A DNA stretch of 64,000 bases from Streptomyces sp. NBC_01224 (GTDB lineage: Bacteria > Actinomycetota > Actinomycetes > Streptomycetales > Streptomycetaceae), in contig NZ_CP108529.1 of assembly GCF_036002945.1 (NCBI RefSeq), positions 8,985,001-9,049,000 of the forward strand, in the 5' to 3' direction. Shown one piece after another: positions 976 to 9,059 of this stretch. Position 1 is the stretch's first letter. Each line of letters opens with the position of its first letter. The position numbers were made by a program, and so were the translations under genes. The notes beneath the pieces are model-generated. The model worked only from the letters and a program-made list of their open reading frames with translations, was not told the DNA's origin and made no database searches.

Positions 976-1244
976 CTGCAGGTGCTGCGTTCCAAGGGTT
1001 TCTTCACGCTCGCCGGCCGCGAGCACCGGAACCACCGTCCACCACACCGGAGTGCCTTCGCCACGTTCAAGGCCCACCAGTGTCAGCAATGCTCGTGATC
1101 AATACGTCTGGTAAGCACAGATGAACCTGCGATGACACACGCGCCCAGCGCGGAGCGTCTCGTCGCCCGCATCGCGAGCCGGCCGCGCACCCGGGTCCAG
1201 GCCAGTGCCTCCGCCTCCCCTCTCGCCTCGCCCTCACAACCGGG

Positions 1245-2147
1245 TCAGCCCAGCAGTGCGCTCAAAGAACCCTCGGTGGTGTGCTGTTCGCGGCGCATCG
1301 CGCTCCGGGCCAGATGTACCAGCTCTTCTGGCGTGAGGCCGGTGAGCGTGCGGTGAAAATGTGCGATGAGGTCGTTCGCGGCCACGGTCAGCGCTGCGTC
1401 GTCGTTGGGCCGGTCGGGCAGTCCGTCGCCGTCCAGCAGGAGTGCCTCAAGAACGGCGTACAAGTGGGCGGAGCCGGCCTCGCGGACCGTGAACGAGAGG
1501 TGAGCAGACGCGCTCCCCCCGGTGGCATCGGCCACATGCGCGAACCCCCTCGGTACGTAGAGGACTTCGCCCTGACGCAGAACCACGTCCAGCAGCGGAT
1601 CCCCCGGGTCGCCGTCCACGCGCTCGGGCTGCCAGTTCCCGCCGGGCGGTCCCGGATACACACGCCACCGCATCGAGCCGTGTATCTGCACGGCCAGCAC
1701 GTCGGCGTCGTCGCGGTGCACAGGACGGCCGTGCGTCCCTGGCGGGGTGAGAAAGAAGAACGCCTCCACCTGGCGTTGAAAACACTCCGCAAGCCCATTG
1801 GCCAGTTCCCGCACGCCTGCGTGCCACTGGTCGACGTACCGCAGAAGGAGCGTGGCTCCCTCCTTGCCGATCAGTCGGCGCACCGCCCCGGCATCCACGT
1901 AGCGGTTGTCGATCCCGCCCAGGACGACACGGGGGGAACAGTAACGCTCCTCCGGTACAGGACCGTCCTCCTGCACGAGCGTCGCGTAAGGGGTGGTGAG
2001 GAGACCTGCATCCAGGATCCTGTCCAGCTCGGCAACCGTCAGCATCTCCATCGGGGGTGTGCGGGGATGCAATACGGCGGGTGTGCGGCGCCACAGGGTG
2101 TGATGAAAAGCCTGCTCGTCATCCACAAATCGTGCAAGCGGGTCCAT
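1245..2147 (-). CDS. JmjC/cupin oxygenase B (complete iron site)
   Basis: A 300-aa JmjC-type (cupin_4-like) protein, expected to be a cytosolic Fe(II)/2-oxoglutarate hydroxylase. The metal motif is intact: HRDD gives His144 and Asp146, and the distal ligand is His204 in PRGFAHVAD. The later SAHLSF strand also fits the family. The chosen start (MDPLARF) has GGAGAGG about 6 bases upstream; a longer in-frame reading reaches into the preceding gene and is rejected. It is the last gene of a minus-strand run: peptide (3335-3144), oxygenase A (3051-2182), then this one after a 34-bp gap. Proteins A and B are clear paralogues, with matching N-terminal halves (LDAGLL, YVDQWH, VEAFFFL). The substrate is unknown; the adjacent peptide is the obvious candidate by position. 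A ribosomal-protein or other target remains possible. Confidence 0.85.
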   Translation of the reverse strand: MDPLARFVDDEQAFHHTLWRRTPAVLHPRTPPMEMLTVAELDRILDAGLLTTPYATLVQEDGPVPEERYCSPRVVLGGIDNRYVDAGAVRRLIGKEGATLLLRYVDQWHAGVRELANGLAECFQRQVEAFFFLTPPGTHGRPVHRDDADVLAVQIHGSMRWRVYPGPPGGNWQPERVDGDPGDPLLDVVLRQGEVLYVPRGFAHVADATGGSASAHLSFTVREAGSAHLYAVLEALLLDGDGLPDRPNDDAALTVAANDLIAHFHRTLTGLTPEELVHLARSAMRREQHTTEGSLSALLG

Positions 2148-2181
2148 CGTTGCCTCTCCATGTTCCATGCCGTCGGCGTGA

Positions 2182-3051
2182 TCAGACAGTCTGACGGTTG
2201 CTGTACGCACGCGGTCGTGCCCGGCCGATGACATCATCCGGGGTGACTGCGTCGAGCTGCGCGCTGAGATGGTCCAGGAGGTCGGCCGCGGTGCGCAGTA
2301 GAGTGTCATCGTCCAGCGGACGGCCCGGCAGAGCCAGGCCGTCGACGATCCCCGTCAGGAGAGCCGTGCGCAGATGCTCCGCACCGGCTTCCCTCACCAC
2401 CACTGTCAGATGAGCCGACGAGGAGTCGCCCACGGCCGCGGCGGTGTACGCGAAACCTCTGGGCACGTACAACACTTCACCGGCCTCAAGCACCGTGTCC
2501 AGCAGTGGCGCTCCCGGATTCTCCTCGCGGACCGGCGCCCAGTCGCCGTCGGCCGGACCCGTGTACACCTGCCAGTGCTTGGCACCGCTGAGTTGGATCG
2601 CCAGCAGGTCCCCGTCGTCCCGATGCACCGGACCTCGGCGGCCGGGACGACTCAGGAAAAAGAACGCCTCGACAAGACGGCCAAGTCGCTCGGCAACGCC
2701 CCTCGTGAGTTCACGCACCGGGGGATGCCATTGGTCGACGTAACGGAACTGCAGGGTCGCCCGTTCCTCATCGATCAGTCGTCGGACCGCCGCCGCATCA
2801 ACGTACCCCTGGGCAGGGCTCCCGGTGATGACGCGCGTCGGACAGAAACGCTCGTCGGCGATGCTCCCCTGCGCGGTGTACAGGCCGACATACGGAACGC
2901 GCAGCAGCCCCGCGTCGAGGAGCGCATCCACGTCCGAGAGTGCCAGCACCTCCAACGGCGGGTCCTGCGGCCGCAGAAGCACCGGTTCCTTCCGCCAATA
3001 TGTACCCAGGAGCTGCTCCACGTTCGGTACGCACCGTTCCAGCCAGTCCAT
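2182..3051 (-). CDS. JmjC/cupin oxygenase A (distal metal His replaced by Tyr)
   Basis: A 289-aa paralogue of the downstream oxygenase, with the same architecture and a good ribosome site (GAGAGGGACGG) before MDWLERC. The first half of the metal motif is present: HRDD gives His143 and Asp145. At the position of the third ligand it has Tyr202 (PRGFAYTAA) where its partner has His. This suggests altered metal binding, a catalytically inactive partner, or a regulatory or scaffolding subunit. The gene lies between the peptide gene and oxygenase B. A perfect 13-bp stem-loop (3072-3101) stands just upstream of its ribosome site, so expression relative to the peptide gene may be attenuated. The family call is firm; catalysis is uncertain. 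Confidence 0.85.
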   Translation of the reverse strand: MDWLERCVPNVEQLLGTYWRKEPVLLRPQDPPLEVLALSDVDALLDAGLLRVPYVGLYTAQGSIADERFCPTRVITGSPAQGYVDAAAVRRLIDEERATLQFRYVDQWHPPVRELTRGVAERLGRLVEAFFFLSRPGRRGPVHRDDGDLLAIQLSGAKHWQVYTGPADGDWAPVREENPGAPLLDTVLEAGEVLYVPRGFAYTAAAVGDSSSAHLTVVVREAGAEHLRTALLTGIVDGLALPGRPLDDDTLLRTAADLLDHLSAQLDAVTPDDVIGRARPRAYSNRQTV

Positions 3052-3071
3052 TGTTCCGTCCCTCTCTGAGC

Positions 3072-3101
3072 GGACCCGCCGGTGTGAGCACCGGCGGGTC
3101 C
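3072..3101 (-). promoter_or_regulatory. stem-loop between peptide and oxygenase genes
   Basis: Arms 3072-3084 (GGACCCGCCGGTG) and 3089-3101 pair perfectly over 13 bp with a 4-base loop. It sits between the peptide stop and the ribosome site of oxygenase A and has no T-tract. It could act as a processing or attenuation site that keeps peptide mRNA more abundant than enzyme mRNA. A second, smaller dyad (GCGCAC/GTGCGC) lies at 3115-3130. Confidence 0.6.
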
Positions 3102-3143
3102 CGGACGCGCTTGCGCGCACTCGCGTGCGCGTCGGTCAGCCGA

Positions 3144-3335
3144 TCACATGACGTCGGGGTAACAATCCCCGCACCCGGCCTCGATCTTCTGGTCCGAGGT
3201 CGGGGACGCGGCGGCATCCCCGACAGACGGCACGAAGAACGCCCCTCCGGCAACGGCGAGCGCCGCCACGCTCAGCGCGGCACGCTTGGAGATCTCCGCA
3301 CGCTTCAACGGCTCTACGGCCTGGGAATACGACAT
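3144..3335 (-). CDS. 63-aa candidate precursor peptide, CGDC tail
   Basis: A small peptide gene heading the JmjC operon. The start is set by AAAGGAG about 6 bases upstream of MSYSQAVEP; a longer in-frame upstream extension lacks such a site. Residues 1-20 are charged (EPLKRAEISKRAA), 20-36 hydrophobic (ALSVAALAVAGGAFFVP), then SVGDAAA, which resembles a signal peptidase site. The remaining tail is about 20 residues and ends in EAGCGDCYPDVM, with Cys55 and Cys58. Asp, Tyr, Pro and Asn-like side chains of this sort are usual hydroxylase targets, so the two downstream JmjC proteins may modify it. It could be a RiPP-like precursor or an exported thiol/metal peptide. I recognise no described family. 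Confidence 0.7.
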   Translation of the reverse strand: MSYSQAVEPLKRAEISKRAALSVAALAVAGGAFFVPSVGDAAASPTSDQKIEAGCGDCYPDVM

Positions 3336-3600
3336 GACCACTCCTTTTCCCCGGCAGCGGTTTCCGCCGCGCCCGGGTGTTCGCTCGGCCCCGGTTTCGA
3401 GGCCGAGACAGATCTTGCGTCGGCCCACGTACGGAGGAGAATCAGCACTGACGTATTCCATACGCCACTTACGGATCTCTGATGCGCCCTCTCCCTCTCC
3501 GACGGTGTCCTATGTTGTGAGTTCCCTCTCTGTCAGCCTTGGGTGAGACATCCCGTTCTGCGGGGTTGGCCTGAGAGGGCACGACAGGAGAACCGTCCCT
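3336..3600. other. 265-bp gap upstream of peptide operon
   Basis: No convincing gene lies here. On the minus strand it must contain the promoter of the peptide/JmjC operon; a weak CTGACA-N17-ATAGGA match occurs at about 3510-3540, too weak to call. The plus strand leads into the IS3-type element. Confidence 0.4.
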
Positions 3601-3601
3601 T

Positions 3602-3985
3602 ATGCCCAGCACAGAGCCTGTCGGGTCCGAGCCGGCGCCGAGGCCGAAGCGCCGCATTTTCACCTCGGAGTACAAGCTGCGGATCGGCGCCGAGTATGAC
3701 GCCGCGCCCAGGAACGAGAAGGGTGCGGTCCTGCGCCGGGAACGGCTCTACCACTCGCATGTCAAGGAATGGCGGGCCGCCCGGGACGCCGGGGCCCTGG
3801 AAAACCTGGTCGACCGCCGGACCAGCCCGGCCCGTGCGAAGAAGTCCGCCGCGGAGGTGGAGAACGAAAAGCTGCGGCAGCAGGTGGAGCGGTTGCAGAG
3901 GGACCTGGCACGGAACAAGGCCGCACTCGAGGTGATGGGAAAAGCTTCCGCGCTCTTGGAAATGATCTGCGAGAGCGCGGACTGA
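3602..3985 (+). CDS. IS3-family transposase OrfA
   Basis: A 127-aa OrfA: a basic helix-turn-helix (PKRRIFTSEYKLRI) followed by a leucine-zipper-like coiled coil (ENEKLRQQVERLQRDLARNK). The A-AAA-G string at 3940-3944 lies at the point where a -1 shift would enter the OrfB frame, as in normal IS3 programmed frameshifting. The OrfB partner is truncated, so the element is probably immobile. Confidence 0.8.
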   Translation: MPSTEPVGSEPAPRPKRRIFTSEYKLRIGAEYDAAPRNEKGAVLRRERLYHSHVKEWRAARDAGALENLVDRRTSPARAKKSAAEVENEKLRQQVERLQRDLARNKAALEVMGKASALLEMICESAD

Positions 3986-4662
3986 AGCCTGCCGCGGACC
4001 CTGTCGTGGACGAGGCGTTCACCAGCGTCGAGGTTCAGCTGGGCATCACGGCCGCCTGCCGGCTGACCGGCCGCTCCCGCGCCACGCATTACCGTCGGCT
4101 CCGGCCGGCACCACCACGCAGAACACGTGCCCCGCAGATGCAACCATCGGCCCTGACGGCCGAAGAGCGGTCTGCGGTACTCGAGTTGATGAACGGTGAC
4201 GAGTACGCCGAGCTGGCGCCCGCGCAGATCTGGGCCCGCGGGCTGGATGCCGGGCGCTATCACTGCTCCGTCTCGACGATGTACCGGATCCTGCGCGAGC
4301 AGGATCAGTCCGGTGAGCGCCGACGGCAGGCCACCCATCTGGCCAAGGCGGTGCCCGAGCTGGTCGCCACCGGGCCCTCGCAGGTGTTCACCTGGGACAT
4401 CACCAAGGCTGCCGGGCCGGCCAAGGGCGTCTGGTATCACGCCTACGTGATCATCGACATCTTCAGCCGGTATATCGTCGGCCACACCGTCGAGCGAGCC
4501 GAATCAGCTGTGCGGGCCGAGGAGCTGATCCGCGGGAACATCGCCCGCAACGGCATGGTGCCCCAGACCGTGCACGCGGACCGCGGCACCTCGATGACGT
4601 CGAAGATGGTCTCCCAACTACTGATCGATCTGGGCGTGACGCGGTCGCGTCCACAGGTGTCG
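3946..4662 (+). pseudogene. IS3-family transposase OrfB, 3' truncated
   Basis: Integrase-core protein in the -1 frame relative to OrfA. It shows the helix-turn-helix (ITAACRLTGRSRATHYRR), the first Asp in FTWDITKAAG and the second in VHADRGTSM. The frame then breaks down at about LGVTRSRPQVSW, before the catalytic Glu. From 4662 the DNA belongs to a different gene on the opposite strand, so the right end of this IS is lost. Confidence 0.8.
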
Positions 4663-5768
4663 TGGGCTCGTCGTCGGTCTCGGTGCGTGAGGGGAGCGGA
4701 AGGGGTTCCCAGACGTAGTCGTCGGTGTATGCGTACGCGGCGTCGGTGAGCCAGCCGAGGTCGAGCCGGTGGTCGCGGGCCAGGGCGGGGGTGGCGGCGG
4801 CCGTCCAGTCGGCGTCGGTCCAGCGGTCGTCGGTGGCGTTGTCCGCGGTGCGCAGGGTGGAGCGGGTCAGGGCGTGCAGGTGGTACGGCCACAGCGCGTA
4901 CGGGTTCTCGCGGACGAAGGGCCGCTCGGCAAGCCGGGCGGCCGCCGCCTGGTGGGGGAGGCCGGCTGTGGCGGTGGCCAGGCCAAGGTCGAAAGGCATC
5001 CAGCAGGGACACCGACCGCAGGATGTGGTGCTCGTCGGGGGTGAGGTCGGCCAGGGTGCGGGTGATCAGCGCGGGGAAGTCGGCGTTGAAGTCCGCCGGT
5101 GCGGGGGGTATGTCCGGACCGCCGCAGTTCCAGGAAGCGGAGCACGGCGAGATCGAGGTAGAGGGGCAGGCCGTGGGAGTGGTCGGTGATGACGGCCCGC
5201 AGTTCGGCGCTGATGGGGGCTGCCCGTCGCGGACCAGGCAGCGGGCGAGGTAGTCGTCGCAGTCCTGCGGGCTGAAGTCGCCGATGCGGACCTGCCGCCC
5301 GTTCCCGGGGGCGCGGGCCGGGAACCGCCTGCTGGGCCAGGCCGGGCCAGACGGTGGGGCCGGTGTAGTCGAGCTGGCCCTGCAGGGCGGGGTCGGCCCA
5401 CTGGAGGCGGCTGCGGCCGGTGACGATGAAGAACGCGTTAGGCATCAGCCGTTCCAGGTCGCGGTGGGTCCGGTCGCCGGTGTCCTCGAAGGTGTCCAGC
5501 AGGACCACGGGCACCACGGCTTTCTCGGTCGGGATCCGGGTGAGCTCCCAGGCGAGCAGGTACGAGTAGCACGACTGGGCGTCGATGTCCGGCTCGGCGT
5601 CCAGGAGGTCCGCGAGCAGGGAGCAGCCGGCCAGGGCGCGTACGGTCTGGCGGCGTTCGCGCAGCGCGGTGGCCTGGGTGCCAGTGAGCTGGCCGACGGC
5701 GCCGCCGATGGACCGGGCAGCATGAGTGCCTGGGCGACGTTGCCGAGCGCGGACTGGACCTGCTGTGG
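4663..5768 (-). pseudogene. STAND/ATP-binding-type protein, frameshifted and truncated
   Basis: Minus-strand coding sequence spread over at least three frames. Readable pieces in order are NVAQALMLPG, AGCSLLADLLDAEPDIDAQS, AVVPVVLLDTFEDTGDRTHR (a Walker B-like hhhhDxxE) and NAFFIVTGRSRLQWADPALQ, followed by an all-helical part (ISAELRAVITDHSHGLPLYL). This order resembles the NTPase part of large actinobacterial STAND-like proteins. Frame changes near 5705, 5300 and 5010 break it. The N-terminal P-loop part and the C-terminus are missing. Confidence 0.6.
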
Positions 5769-7617: not shown

Positions 7618-9059
7618 AGGGCTTTGTTAGGTACCCCAAGTGATCCTCGTTGGATAGATTGTGATCTTCTTTCAGTTGTGACTCCTGAGGAGATGGAAGA
7701 GGTCCGTCCGCGTCTGGAGGCGTTCGCGGCCGAGATGCTGGGCTCGTTGGCGCGTCGGGACCAGCGGGCCAAGGGTGAGTTGTACCTGCGCGGGCTGATG
7801 CTGGACGGCAAGCGCAAGTCGATGCAGCCGATGGCCGAGCGCCTGGGCGTGGACCACCAGCAGCTCCAGCAGTTCGTGTCCTCCTCCACCTGGGACTACG
7901 CCAAGGTCCGTGAGCGGCTGGCCCGTTGGGCCGCGGCGCACATCTCGCCCGAGGCGTACGCGATTGACGATGTCGGCTTCCCCAAGGACGGCTACGACTC
8001 GCCAGGGGTGGCGCGGATGTACTGCGGCGCGCTGGGCAAGCGGGGCAACTGCCAGATCGGGGTCAGTGTGAACCTGGTCAGCGACCGCGCCTCCTCGGCC
8101 GTCGACTGGCGTCTGTTCCTGCCCGAGGGCTGGGACGACACCAAACATACCGAGGACGCGCTGCTGGCTTCGGCGATCCGCCGGCGCCGCGCCAAGGCCG
8201 GCATCCCCGAGACTGCTCGCCACCGGGAGAAGTGGCGCCTGGCCCTGGACATGCTCGACGAGGTTCGCGGGGACTGGGAGTTGCCGGGCCTGCCGGTCGT
8301 CGCCGATGCCGGATACGGCGACGCCACGGGCTTTCGAGAGGGTCTGACCGAACGAGGCCTGACCTACGCGGTCGCGGTCAAGGCCACCACGACCGCGCAC
8401 CCGGGCGACGCCACGCCCGAGCGTCCGCCGTACTCCGGGCAGGGCCGCCCTCCCGTGTCCGCCTACCCCCAGCCGCACACCACCCTGCGCGTGCTGGCCC
8501 TGGCCGCCGGGCAAGCGGCCACCCGCACCGTTACCTGGCGTCAGGGCAGCAAGGCCACCAAGCACAACCCACGGGCCGAGATGCGCTCGCAATTCCTGGC
8601 CCTACGGGTCCGCCCGGCCAACCGGTCCATCCGCCGCGCCGCCGACGGCTCCCTGCCCGAATGCTGGCTGCTCGTCGAGTGGCCTCCCGACTCTGCCGAG
8701 CCCACCGACTACTGGCTCTCGACGCTGCCCGCCGACATCCCACTGCGCGAGCTGGTGCGAATCGCCAAGATCCGCTGGAGAGTTGAACACGACTACCGCG
8801 AGCTCAAGGACGGCCTCGGCCTGGACCACTTCGAGGGCCGCAACTACCTCGGCTGGCACCGCCACGTCACCCTCGCCTCCCTCGCCCAGGCCTTCTGCAC
8901 CCTGCTCAGACTCGACCCAAAAGCCCCTGCGCCGGCCTGACCCTCTACGCGGTCCTCCGCGAACTCCAGGCCCTCCTGGCCACCTGGACCGGCGCCTGCT
9001 CGATATGCGGCCAACCCGCACCAACCCCCGAACCCCACCACAGGACCTAACAAAGCCCT
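7618..9059 (+). mobile_element. intact IS701-type insertion sequence, 1442 bp
   Basis: Terminal inverted repeats AGGGCTTTGTTAGGT (7618-7632) and its complement (9045-9059) match perfectly. A 6-bp direct repeat AATAGT flanks both ends (7612-7617 and 9060-9065). A single undamaged transposase gene fills the element. It is the least degraded mobile element in the window and therefore probably a recent arrival. Confidence 0.88.
7624..8940 (+). CDS. IS701-family transposase
   Basis: A 438-aa DDE transposase of the IS4/IS701 type. The first Asp lies in YAIDDVGFPKDG, the second in VVADAGYGDATG, and the Glu in RWRVEHDYRELKDGLGLDHF. Length and motif spacing are normal. The frame is open throughout. 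A start slightly downstream (for example near EEMEEVRPR) is possible. Confidence 0.9.
   Translation: MLGTPSDPRWIDCDLLSVVTPEEMEEVRPRLEAFAAEMLGSLARRDQRAKGELYLRGLMLDGKRKSMQPMAERLGVDHQQLQQFVSSSTWDYAKVRERLARWAAAHISPEAYAIDDVGFPKDGYDSPGVARMYCGALGKRGNCQIGVSVNLVSDRASSAVDWRLFLPEGWDDTKHTEDALLASAIRRRRAKAGIPETARHREKWRLALDMLDEVRGDWELPGLPVVADAGYGDATGFREGLTERGLTYAVAVKATTTAHPGDATPERPPYSGQGRPPVSAYPQPHTTLRVLALAAGQAATRTVTWRQGSKATKHNPRAEMRSQFLALRVRPANRSIRRAADGSLPECWLLVEWPPDSAEPTDYWLSTLPADIPLRELVRIAKIRWRVEHDYRELKDGLGLDHFEGRNYLGWHRHVTLASLAQAFCTLLRLDPKAPAPA

Follow-up and report, generated by a model that had tools for sequence, protein, structure and literature searches.

A peptide gene followed by two JmjC genes

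The stretch analysed here (the window) comprises 64,000 nucleotides of Streptomyces sp. NBC_01224 and corresponds to 8.985-9.049 Mb of the 9.66-Mb main contig of a 10.0-Mb genome. On its minus strand it carries a three-gene cassette: a precursor-like peptide gene (63 aa; 3144..3335), followed by genes for two JmjC proteins, JmjC-1 (J1, 289 aa; 2182..3051) and JmjC-2 (J2, 300 aa; 1245..2147). The original prediction for this DNA had described an open reading frame (ORF) of 63 aa with a good ribosome site and a CGDCYPDVM tail, followed by two JmjC paralogues on the same strand, and this description was confirmed throughout. The frames are as described, AAGGAG is located five bases 5' of the peptide ATG, and purine-rich ribosome sites also precede J1 and J2. 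Both proteins match Pfam JmjC_2 (PF08007; 53.1 bits, 3e-14 for J1 and 66 bits, 3e-18 for J2, with a cut-off of 22) and share 50% identity.

The peptide, MSYSQAVEPLKRAEISKRAALSVAALAVAGGAFFVPSVGDAAASPTSDQKIEAGCGDCYPDVM, ends in GCGDCYPDVM. Residues 1-43 (3207..3335, minus strand) form a Sec-signal-like leader, with a basic n-region, a hydrophobic stretch and AxA before residue 44. The same features recur across 17 peptides: the n-region is net positive in 16 (0 in L017), the hydrophobic stretch has a mean hydropathy of 1.9-2.4 over 15 residues, and AxA lies before the tail in 15, the remaining two having GHA. From this count of features we deduce a probable Sec signal peptide, which would be cut at an AxA-type site. 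The hydrophobic middle noted originally is present, and what that first reading missed is its signal-peptide form. Given a Sec signal peptide, neither a dedicated transporter nor a dedicated protease would be needed.

Orthologues of the peptide were found in all 15 cassettes examined, where the pattern C-x-x-C-(Y/H/P)-(P/L)-D-V-(I/M) is fixed at the C-terminus. In the window this tail occupies residues 55-63 (3147..3173, minus strand). C55, C58, D61 and V62 are invariant in 16 aligned peptides, with the stop codon immediately 3' of I/M. The last residue is Ile in eleven cassettes and Met in four (the window, L043, L003 and L046). When the six closest copies were compared pairwise (15 pairs), the ratio of nonsynonymous to synonymous differences (pN/pS) was 0.38 for the leader, 0.21 for residues 45-63 and 0.12 for the last 14 codons, the last value being based on few substitutions; J1 and J2 gave 0.20 and 0.26. 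The tail, whose conservation had been named beforehand as a test, is therefore the most conserved part of the peptide and is under the strongest purifying selection. The peptides combine a conserved leader with a core-like segment, as judged by alignment and pN/pS, and conservation in 15 loci together with pN/pS excludes a chance ORF.

By sequence, the closest solved relatives of J2 are NO66, MINA53 and YcfD. An AlphaFold2 model of J2 (mean predicted local distance difference test score, 84.5) was matched by Foldseek to NO66, MINA53, YxbC and YcfD. NCBIfam has no family for J1 or J2, and its only match to the peptide is a weak one to the leader. The H-x-D motif is kept in all 30 proteins (15 J1 and 15 J2) and the distal His in 14 of 15 J1 and 14 of 15 J2, such that 13 of the 15 cassettes retain both metal triads. 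J2 of the window has a complete HxD...H (H144, D146, H204). J1 of the window keeps H-x-D and has Tyr202 (codon 2446..2448, minus strand) in place of the distal His.

The recurrent unit, its distribution and its neighbours

The gene order peptide-J1-J2 was found in 15 of 15 loci, with the peptide directly upstream of every J1-J2 pair. These loci are the window, a second cassette in the same genome, L001-L005 (from named Streptomyces genomes) and eight sites in eight further genomes of the family. A search for the three-gene order and an alignment of the tails had both been proposed at the outset, and both came out in favour of the unit; JmjC pairs regularly lacking the peptide had been named as evidence against it, and no such pair was found (0 of 15 loci). 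A genetically encoded precursor is thus linked to candidate modifying enzymes in every case. Tandem peptide genes occur in L018 (two), L020 (three) and L021 (two). The second cassette of this genome, at 4.811-4.814 Mb (G000:C1:4.81 Mb), is complete; its tail is EAGCGDCYPDVI, with EAGCGDCYPDV in common with the window peptide, its leader has diverged and both of its triads are intact.

In six genomes (the window, G256 and L001-L004) the cassette is a discrete, sharply bounded block of ~2.27 kb (1242..3495 of the window, minus strand). The other five are 86-96% identical to the window at the DNA level, from ~444 bases 5' of J1 to just past the J2 stop. The homology boundary places a conserved 5' region at 3336..3495 (minus strand), with the ribosome site at 3341-3346 and a presumed promoter further up. 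Between the peptide and J1 of L002 lie 401 masked bases (N). The flanks are unrelated except for a few shared stretches, namely 6.6 kb of left flank common to L003 and G256, and 456 bp past J2 and 76 bp on the left common to L001 and L002.

Surveys of genomes, which scored a limited number of first-look candidates per genome, detected a J1 homologue (E<=1e-15) in 103 of 394 genomes of the family and the J1-J2 pair in nine. Full-length matches to the peptide profile (E<1e-20) were found only in these same nine genomes; matches in G308, G051 and G181 were far weaker and fell mostly on the alanine-rich leader. Across 394 genomes of the class, the profile had matches at E<=0.01 in 52 genomes, of which G000 and G110 alone gave full-length ones; elsewhere the matches reached a best E of 5e-6, as compared with 2e-25 or better, and again covered mostly the alanine-rich leader. 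A strict tail pattern matched only G000 (two) and G256 (one) among 391 genomes of the order, which is an undercount since the pattern requires a TGA stop and fixed residues and overlooked known copies. As far as sampled, the unit is confined to this family, with two genera represented among the nine genomes.

Streptomyces plasmids also carry the unit: of 11 plasmid records with a match, seven reach at least 61% against J2, and the two of these seven that were inspected are both linear. The plasmid of Streptomyces sp. NBC_00048 encodes a 'hypothetical protein' (64 aa, ending in GCAECYPDVI), two cupin proteins and a helix-turn-helix (HTH) regulator in succession. On that of S. atratus NBC 01545 the 63-aa peptide and J1 are annotated, and the gene table of the plasmid database does not include J2.

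A LuxR-type regulator adjoins eight of the 15 cassettes, upstream in seven and downstream in one, and the C-terminal LuxR-type HTH is a GerE domain in both members tested. No such regulator was found near cassettes of the window type. Neighbour clustering at the 15 loci (ORFs of at least 90 aa in flanks of 7-11 kb, extending 1.2 kb past J2 on the right side of the window) identified no third enzyme gene recurring directly beside the unit among the 40 largest ORF groups. One ORF family occurs in six loci (L012, L046-L050), 3-7 kb away and in varied position and orientation, and was not counted to the unit. Groups common to the four loci L047-L050 reflect plain synteny, and the other recurrent ORFs are the JmjC, peptide and regulator genes or opposite-frame shadows of them. 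The block shared by the six genomes holds peptide, J1 and J2, stops just past J2, and contains neither YcaO nor TfuA. Pfam finds only JmjC/cupin domains in the unit, and no multinuclear non-heme iron-dependent oxidative enzyme (MNIO) or partner protein. Elsewhere in the window, transposase-type genes lie near the cassette (an rve integrase core in 3769-4749 and a DDE transposase at 7624-8940), and positions 1-592 hold the end of a flavin mononucleotide-dependent dehydrogenase gene (PF01070), truncated by the window start.

Single JmjC homologues and the C-terminal residue of their precursors

In a tree of 68 rows, J1 forms one clade (100/100), J2 another (95/88), and the two together a third (96/89). 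Next to them are single JmjC proteins from TfuA loci L022, L024 and L026 (the same as L111, L113 and L115), of which L111 and L113 also encode a YcaO. L023 (the same as L112), with radical SAM-SPASM and ATP-binding cassette (ABC) genes, lies near J1/J2 with weak support. Maturation or export genes of ribosomally synthesized and post-translationally modified peptides (RiPPs) stand beside six of ten typed single homologues (L111-L120): TfuA in L111, L113 and L115, radical SAM-SPASM in L112, LanB/LanC in L117 and a C39-peptidase ABC transporter in L116. L119 has a cytochrome P450 and a short peptide, L114 and L118 have condensation-domain genes, and only general genes were seen in L120 among the neighbours tested. 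A more distant single JmjC lies beside a YcaO and a TOMM leader-binding protein on plasmid NBC_00715. The CxxC...DV tail was found in none of the 21 single-homologue loci L022-L042, where wider stretches gave other precursor types in some. Homologues also occur near carrier-protein-like ORFs (L132, L144, L145); these loci and the condensation-domain loci L114 and L118, the latter also with a GG-leader peptide, are possible hybrids of RiPP and nonribosomal peptide synthetase pathways.

Distant tandem JmjC pairs are likewise preceded by a short peptide in L091, L092 and L110 (...SQINEA), L094 and L101 (...SEINEA), L093 (...NQISAA), L104 (...NIDFA) and L106 (...KNIQ); in L101, the second JmjC matches PF08007 only weakly. 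L092, L094, L104 and L110 continue with a YcaO, with TfuA in three of the four and a prolyl oligopeptidase (S9 peptidase) in two. No directly upstream peptide of this type was found in nine of 16 fetched stretches (L095-L100, L102, L103, L105). Of these nine, L097 does encode a GG-leader peptide, located ~0.6 kb upstream, and in L095 a peptide related to that of L106 lies downstream. The L106 peptide, VEFDDIEFIETAEELLATSYYKNIQ, is present in two copies beside the JmjC genes and belongs to no known type that we recognised. In L094 and L104 the second JmjC aligns without a metal triad (VGE and AAR), and these proteins, on long branches, are possible pseudo-enzyme partners. As the distant pairs branch apart from J1/J2, tandem pairs apparently evolved at least twice.

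The last residue of the encoded peptides was analysed in 50 stretches surrounding homologues that fall outside the J1-J2 clade (L111-L160, 458 kb), with a 125-kb control made up of the window beyond position 3600 and unrelated loci. Small ORFs ending in V-I made up 25 of 2958 in these stretches, versus two of 1170 in the control. Eighteen of the 25 belong to one peptide family, four more are precursor-like (L112 twice, L118, L141), and the remaining three (L130, L144 and a second in L141) were taken for chance. The main family, MKMVKAIVKKFKKDEDLANHAWVLHVI with variants (HLI in L137), is found in 19 of the 50 loci, exactly those with a P450 homologue (L119, L121-L124, L126, L127, L129, L133, L135-L139, L142, L149, L151, L152, L154), and forms with the P450 and the JmjC a conserved three-gene set (peptide consensus MKMxKAxxKKFKKDEDLANHAWVLHVI). 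The type was first spotted through its V-I ending and then confirmed by the adjacent P450 homologue at 19 of 19 loci. These loci probably encode P450-crosslinked RiPPs.

GG-leader peptides, detected with a pattern that is blind to the last residue and has no match in the control, end in ELVI (L141), LEVI (L097), HCVI (L118), RNCI (L114) and KACI (L116, L160), with RYLL in L147 as the exception; two further ORFs with this pattern (L141, L147) were taken for chance. Peptides of the radical SAM locus end in SVI and EVI, that of the LanB locus in CKTTI and that of L109 in NCV. Small ORFs ending in Ile account for 10 of 1170 in the control, or 6 of 486 with high GC content at third codon positions (0.9-1.2%). 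Eight of nine precursor types end in Ile, a binomial count that is post hoc and a rough guide, as it takes GG peptides with a shared leader for separate types and excludes both the distant tandem clade (Ala/Gln) and L109, which ends in Val and sits on a long branch. A precursor was recognised in only part of the loci, and none in, for example, L111, L113, L115, L120, L125, L130 and L131. Most of the precursors recognised for this JmjC clade, which have little else in common, carry Ile as the last residue. Together with the D-V-I/M of the cassette peptide, this common ending leads us to place the putative reaction at or near the C-terminus.

A putative JmjC-only pathway, its alternatives and known systems

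We favour, at a probability of roughly 0.7, the reading of the unit as a hydroxylase-only, RiPP-like operon, in which JmjC enzymes would oxidise the C-terminal tail of a peptide with a Sec-type leader before export. The gene context strongly suggests JmjC tailoring of the peptide, and the RiPP genes beside single homologues support the view that JmjC proteins of this kind tailor RiPP precursors. The small gene would give a precursor whose N-terminal Sec-type leader is followed by a product region of the last ~20 residues. J1 and J2, an old duplicate pair of predicted Fe(II)/2-oxoglutarate oxygenases, would act in the cytosol on the C-x-x-C-Y-P-D-V-I/M tail, with the invariant D-V or the last residue as the most likely hydroxylation sites. 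The hydroxylated peptide would then be exported by Sec and trimmed by signal peptidase, and its two Cys would probably form a disulfide outside the cell. A secreted signal and a metal-binding peptide are candidate roles for the product.

More tentatively, and with less than even odds, the whole JmjC clade may be a class-independent, C-terminus-directed family that recognises Ile or Met at the free C-terminus of YcaO/TfuA, LanB, radical SAM and P450 precursors and oxidises their final residue or final two residues. The cassette would then be its minimal form, a pathway of two oxygenases whose peptide is secreted with its C-terminus oxidised or trimmed.

Several observations weigh against the operon reading. 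The unit is rare (9 of 394 family genomes), its 15 loci are not 15 independent events, and the few substitutions behind the tail pN/pS have been noted above. No RiPP recognition element (RRE) was seen among the Pfam matches of the JmjC proteins, and for three of the ten typed single homologues (L114, L118, L120) the tested neighbours included neither a P450 nor a RiPP enzyme that could be recognised. The window copy itself has PRGFAY in J1 (HxD...Y), where Tyr replaces the third Fe ligand His, and J2 of L046 carries the same change in the opposite partner. Since J1 of the window is without this ligand, two active oxygenases cannot be assumed for this copy, which may possess one only (J2). Both ligand losses fall within the four Met-ending cassettes and none among the eleven Ile-ending ones; with relatedness ignored, this coincidence has a chance of 6 in 105 and is suggestive only. 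The original claim of a minimal hydroxylase-only pathway is partly supported, in that no further enzyme gene recurs directly beside the unit, and has to be qualified by the Sec-type leader, which could account for export and cleavage, by the LuxR-type regulator beside eight of 15 cassettes and by the ligand loss in the window J1, which the original prediction had overlooked.

The ligand loss also bears on the alternatives. The window copy could be a decaying relic beside transposase genes, redundant given the second cassette at 4.81 Mb with both triads intact. The Tyr in J1 and the transposase-type genes on one side (3769-4749, 7624-8940) are consistent with decay; but none of the three frames is interrupted, both J2 and the peptide are intact, and J1 is 98% identical to the J1 of G256, and we regard a relic as possible while doubting it. 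A further explanation is that J1 and J2 form an obligate heterodimer with one catalytic and one mainly peptide-binding partner, which would tolerate the loss of an Fe ligand in either. The His-to-Tyr change is indeed confined to one partner in each case, and the triad-less second JmjC of two distant tandem pairs (VGE, AAR) would fit. However, 13 of 15 cassettes keep both triads and the distant cases are on long branches with an unsure alignment, which leaves this arrangement rather doubtful.

The Ile endings could also be explained if the JmjC proteins oxidise the alpha carbon of the last residue (or of V-I), leading to loss of the C-terminal residue or to a C-terminal amide. In favour of such a reaction, precursors belonging to several RiPP types have Ile as their last residue, as compared with 0.9-1.2% of the small ORFs in the control, and a reaction tolerant of side chains would suit either I or M at this position. 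Ile could instead serve in recognition only, the endings of L147 (Leu), L109 (Val) and four of the 15 cassette peptides (Met) deviate, and we know of no JmjC enzyme with C-terminal alpha-carbon oxidation or residue loss as its reaction; we consider this unlikely. The signal-peptide form of the peptide and the LuxR-type regulator beside eight of 15 cassettes would also agree with a secreted peptide, for example a pheromone for that regulator, with the JmjC proteins modifying another protein. This appears improbable, as the peptide is linked to the pair in 15 of 15 loci while the regulator is missing in seven, and several single homologues adjoin RiPP genes and precursor peptides. A purely regulatory function of the small ORF, as an attenuator that yields no product, might be suggested by its place before two enzyme genes but can practically be dismissed in view of the conserved amino-acid tail, its pN/pS of 0.12, the tandem copies and the signal-peptide form.

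If the operon reading is true, JmjC oxygenases are sufficient for the maturation of ribosomal peptides that leave the cell through Sec, and three genes make up such a pathway. It would also assign a role to a set of 'cupin domain-containing proteins' encoded in RiPP clusters of Streptomyces, and would give a sharp prediction, concerning the C-terminal residue, that is valid for many clusters at once. The cassette looks like an unusually stripped-down pathway for a peptide natural product, recurrent in Streptomyces and relatives.

The original prediction knew of no described cassette of this form, and we likewise found no description of a unit of peptide and JmjC pair in the accessible text of the open-licence literature, nor anything there on the combination of Sec, cupin and RiPP. 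Neither 'cupin' nor 'JmjC' occurs in the main text of two thioamide mining papers (PMC6511847, PMC8120280), and the literature on YxbC, among the matches listed, consisted of transcription and physiology papers only. A general link between JmjC proteins and RiPPs is already in print, since bacterial homologues of fish and algal RRE-JmjC fusions occur in RiPP-like contexts, according to PMC12710340.

The sequence and fold matches of the cassette JmjC proteins, NO66, MINA53, YcfD and B. subtilis YxbC, share the PF08007 fold. NO66, MINA53 and YcfD have 373-489 residues and modify ribosomal proteins (as given in the PDB titles), whereas J1 and J2 are shorter, at 289-300 aa, and their genes accompany a peptide gene. 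YcaO-TfuA RiPP clusters with one or two JmjC genes resemble the cassette in having JmjC beside RiPP genes and differ in the YcaO, TfuA and S9 peptidase that the cassette lacks. The JmjC proteins of the P450 loci are 41-46% identical to J2 and their peptides end in V-I (L-I in one), but these loci have a P450, a single JmjC and a peptide without a signal peptide.

Among biphenomycin-type RiPPs, BipG is described as a JmjC ornithine hydroxylase (PMC12707348) and the cupin-like PbsQ as adding 15.99 Da (PMC12257519), and both are precedents for side-chain hydroxylation. As proposed for the cassette, a JmjC (cupin-like) oxygenase hydroxylates a residue of a ribosomal precursor in these systems, but there it is one late tailoring enzyme among MNIO, radical SAM and other genes, while the cassette has a duplicate JmjC pair as its sole enzymes (PMC12707348, PMC12257519). 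Sec signal peptides are described as rare in bacterial RiPP precursors, with Sec export shown experimentally only for bufferins (PMC12452194). Bufferins likewise combine a Cys-containing precursor bearing a Sec-type signal peptide, a small operon and an iron-dependent enzyme, which is an MNIO with a partner protein in their case and a JmjC pair without MNIO in the cassette (PMC12452194). The new aspect of the cassette, on the best reading, is a RiPP-like system that combines JmjC oxygenases alone with a Sec-type leader.

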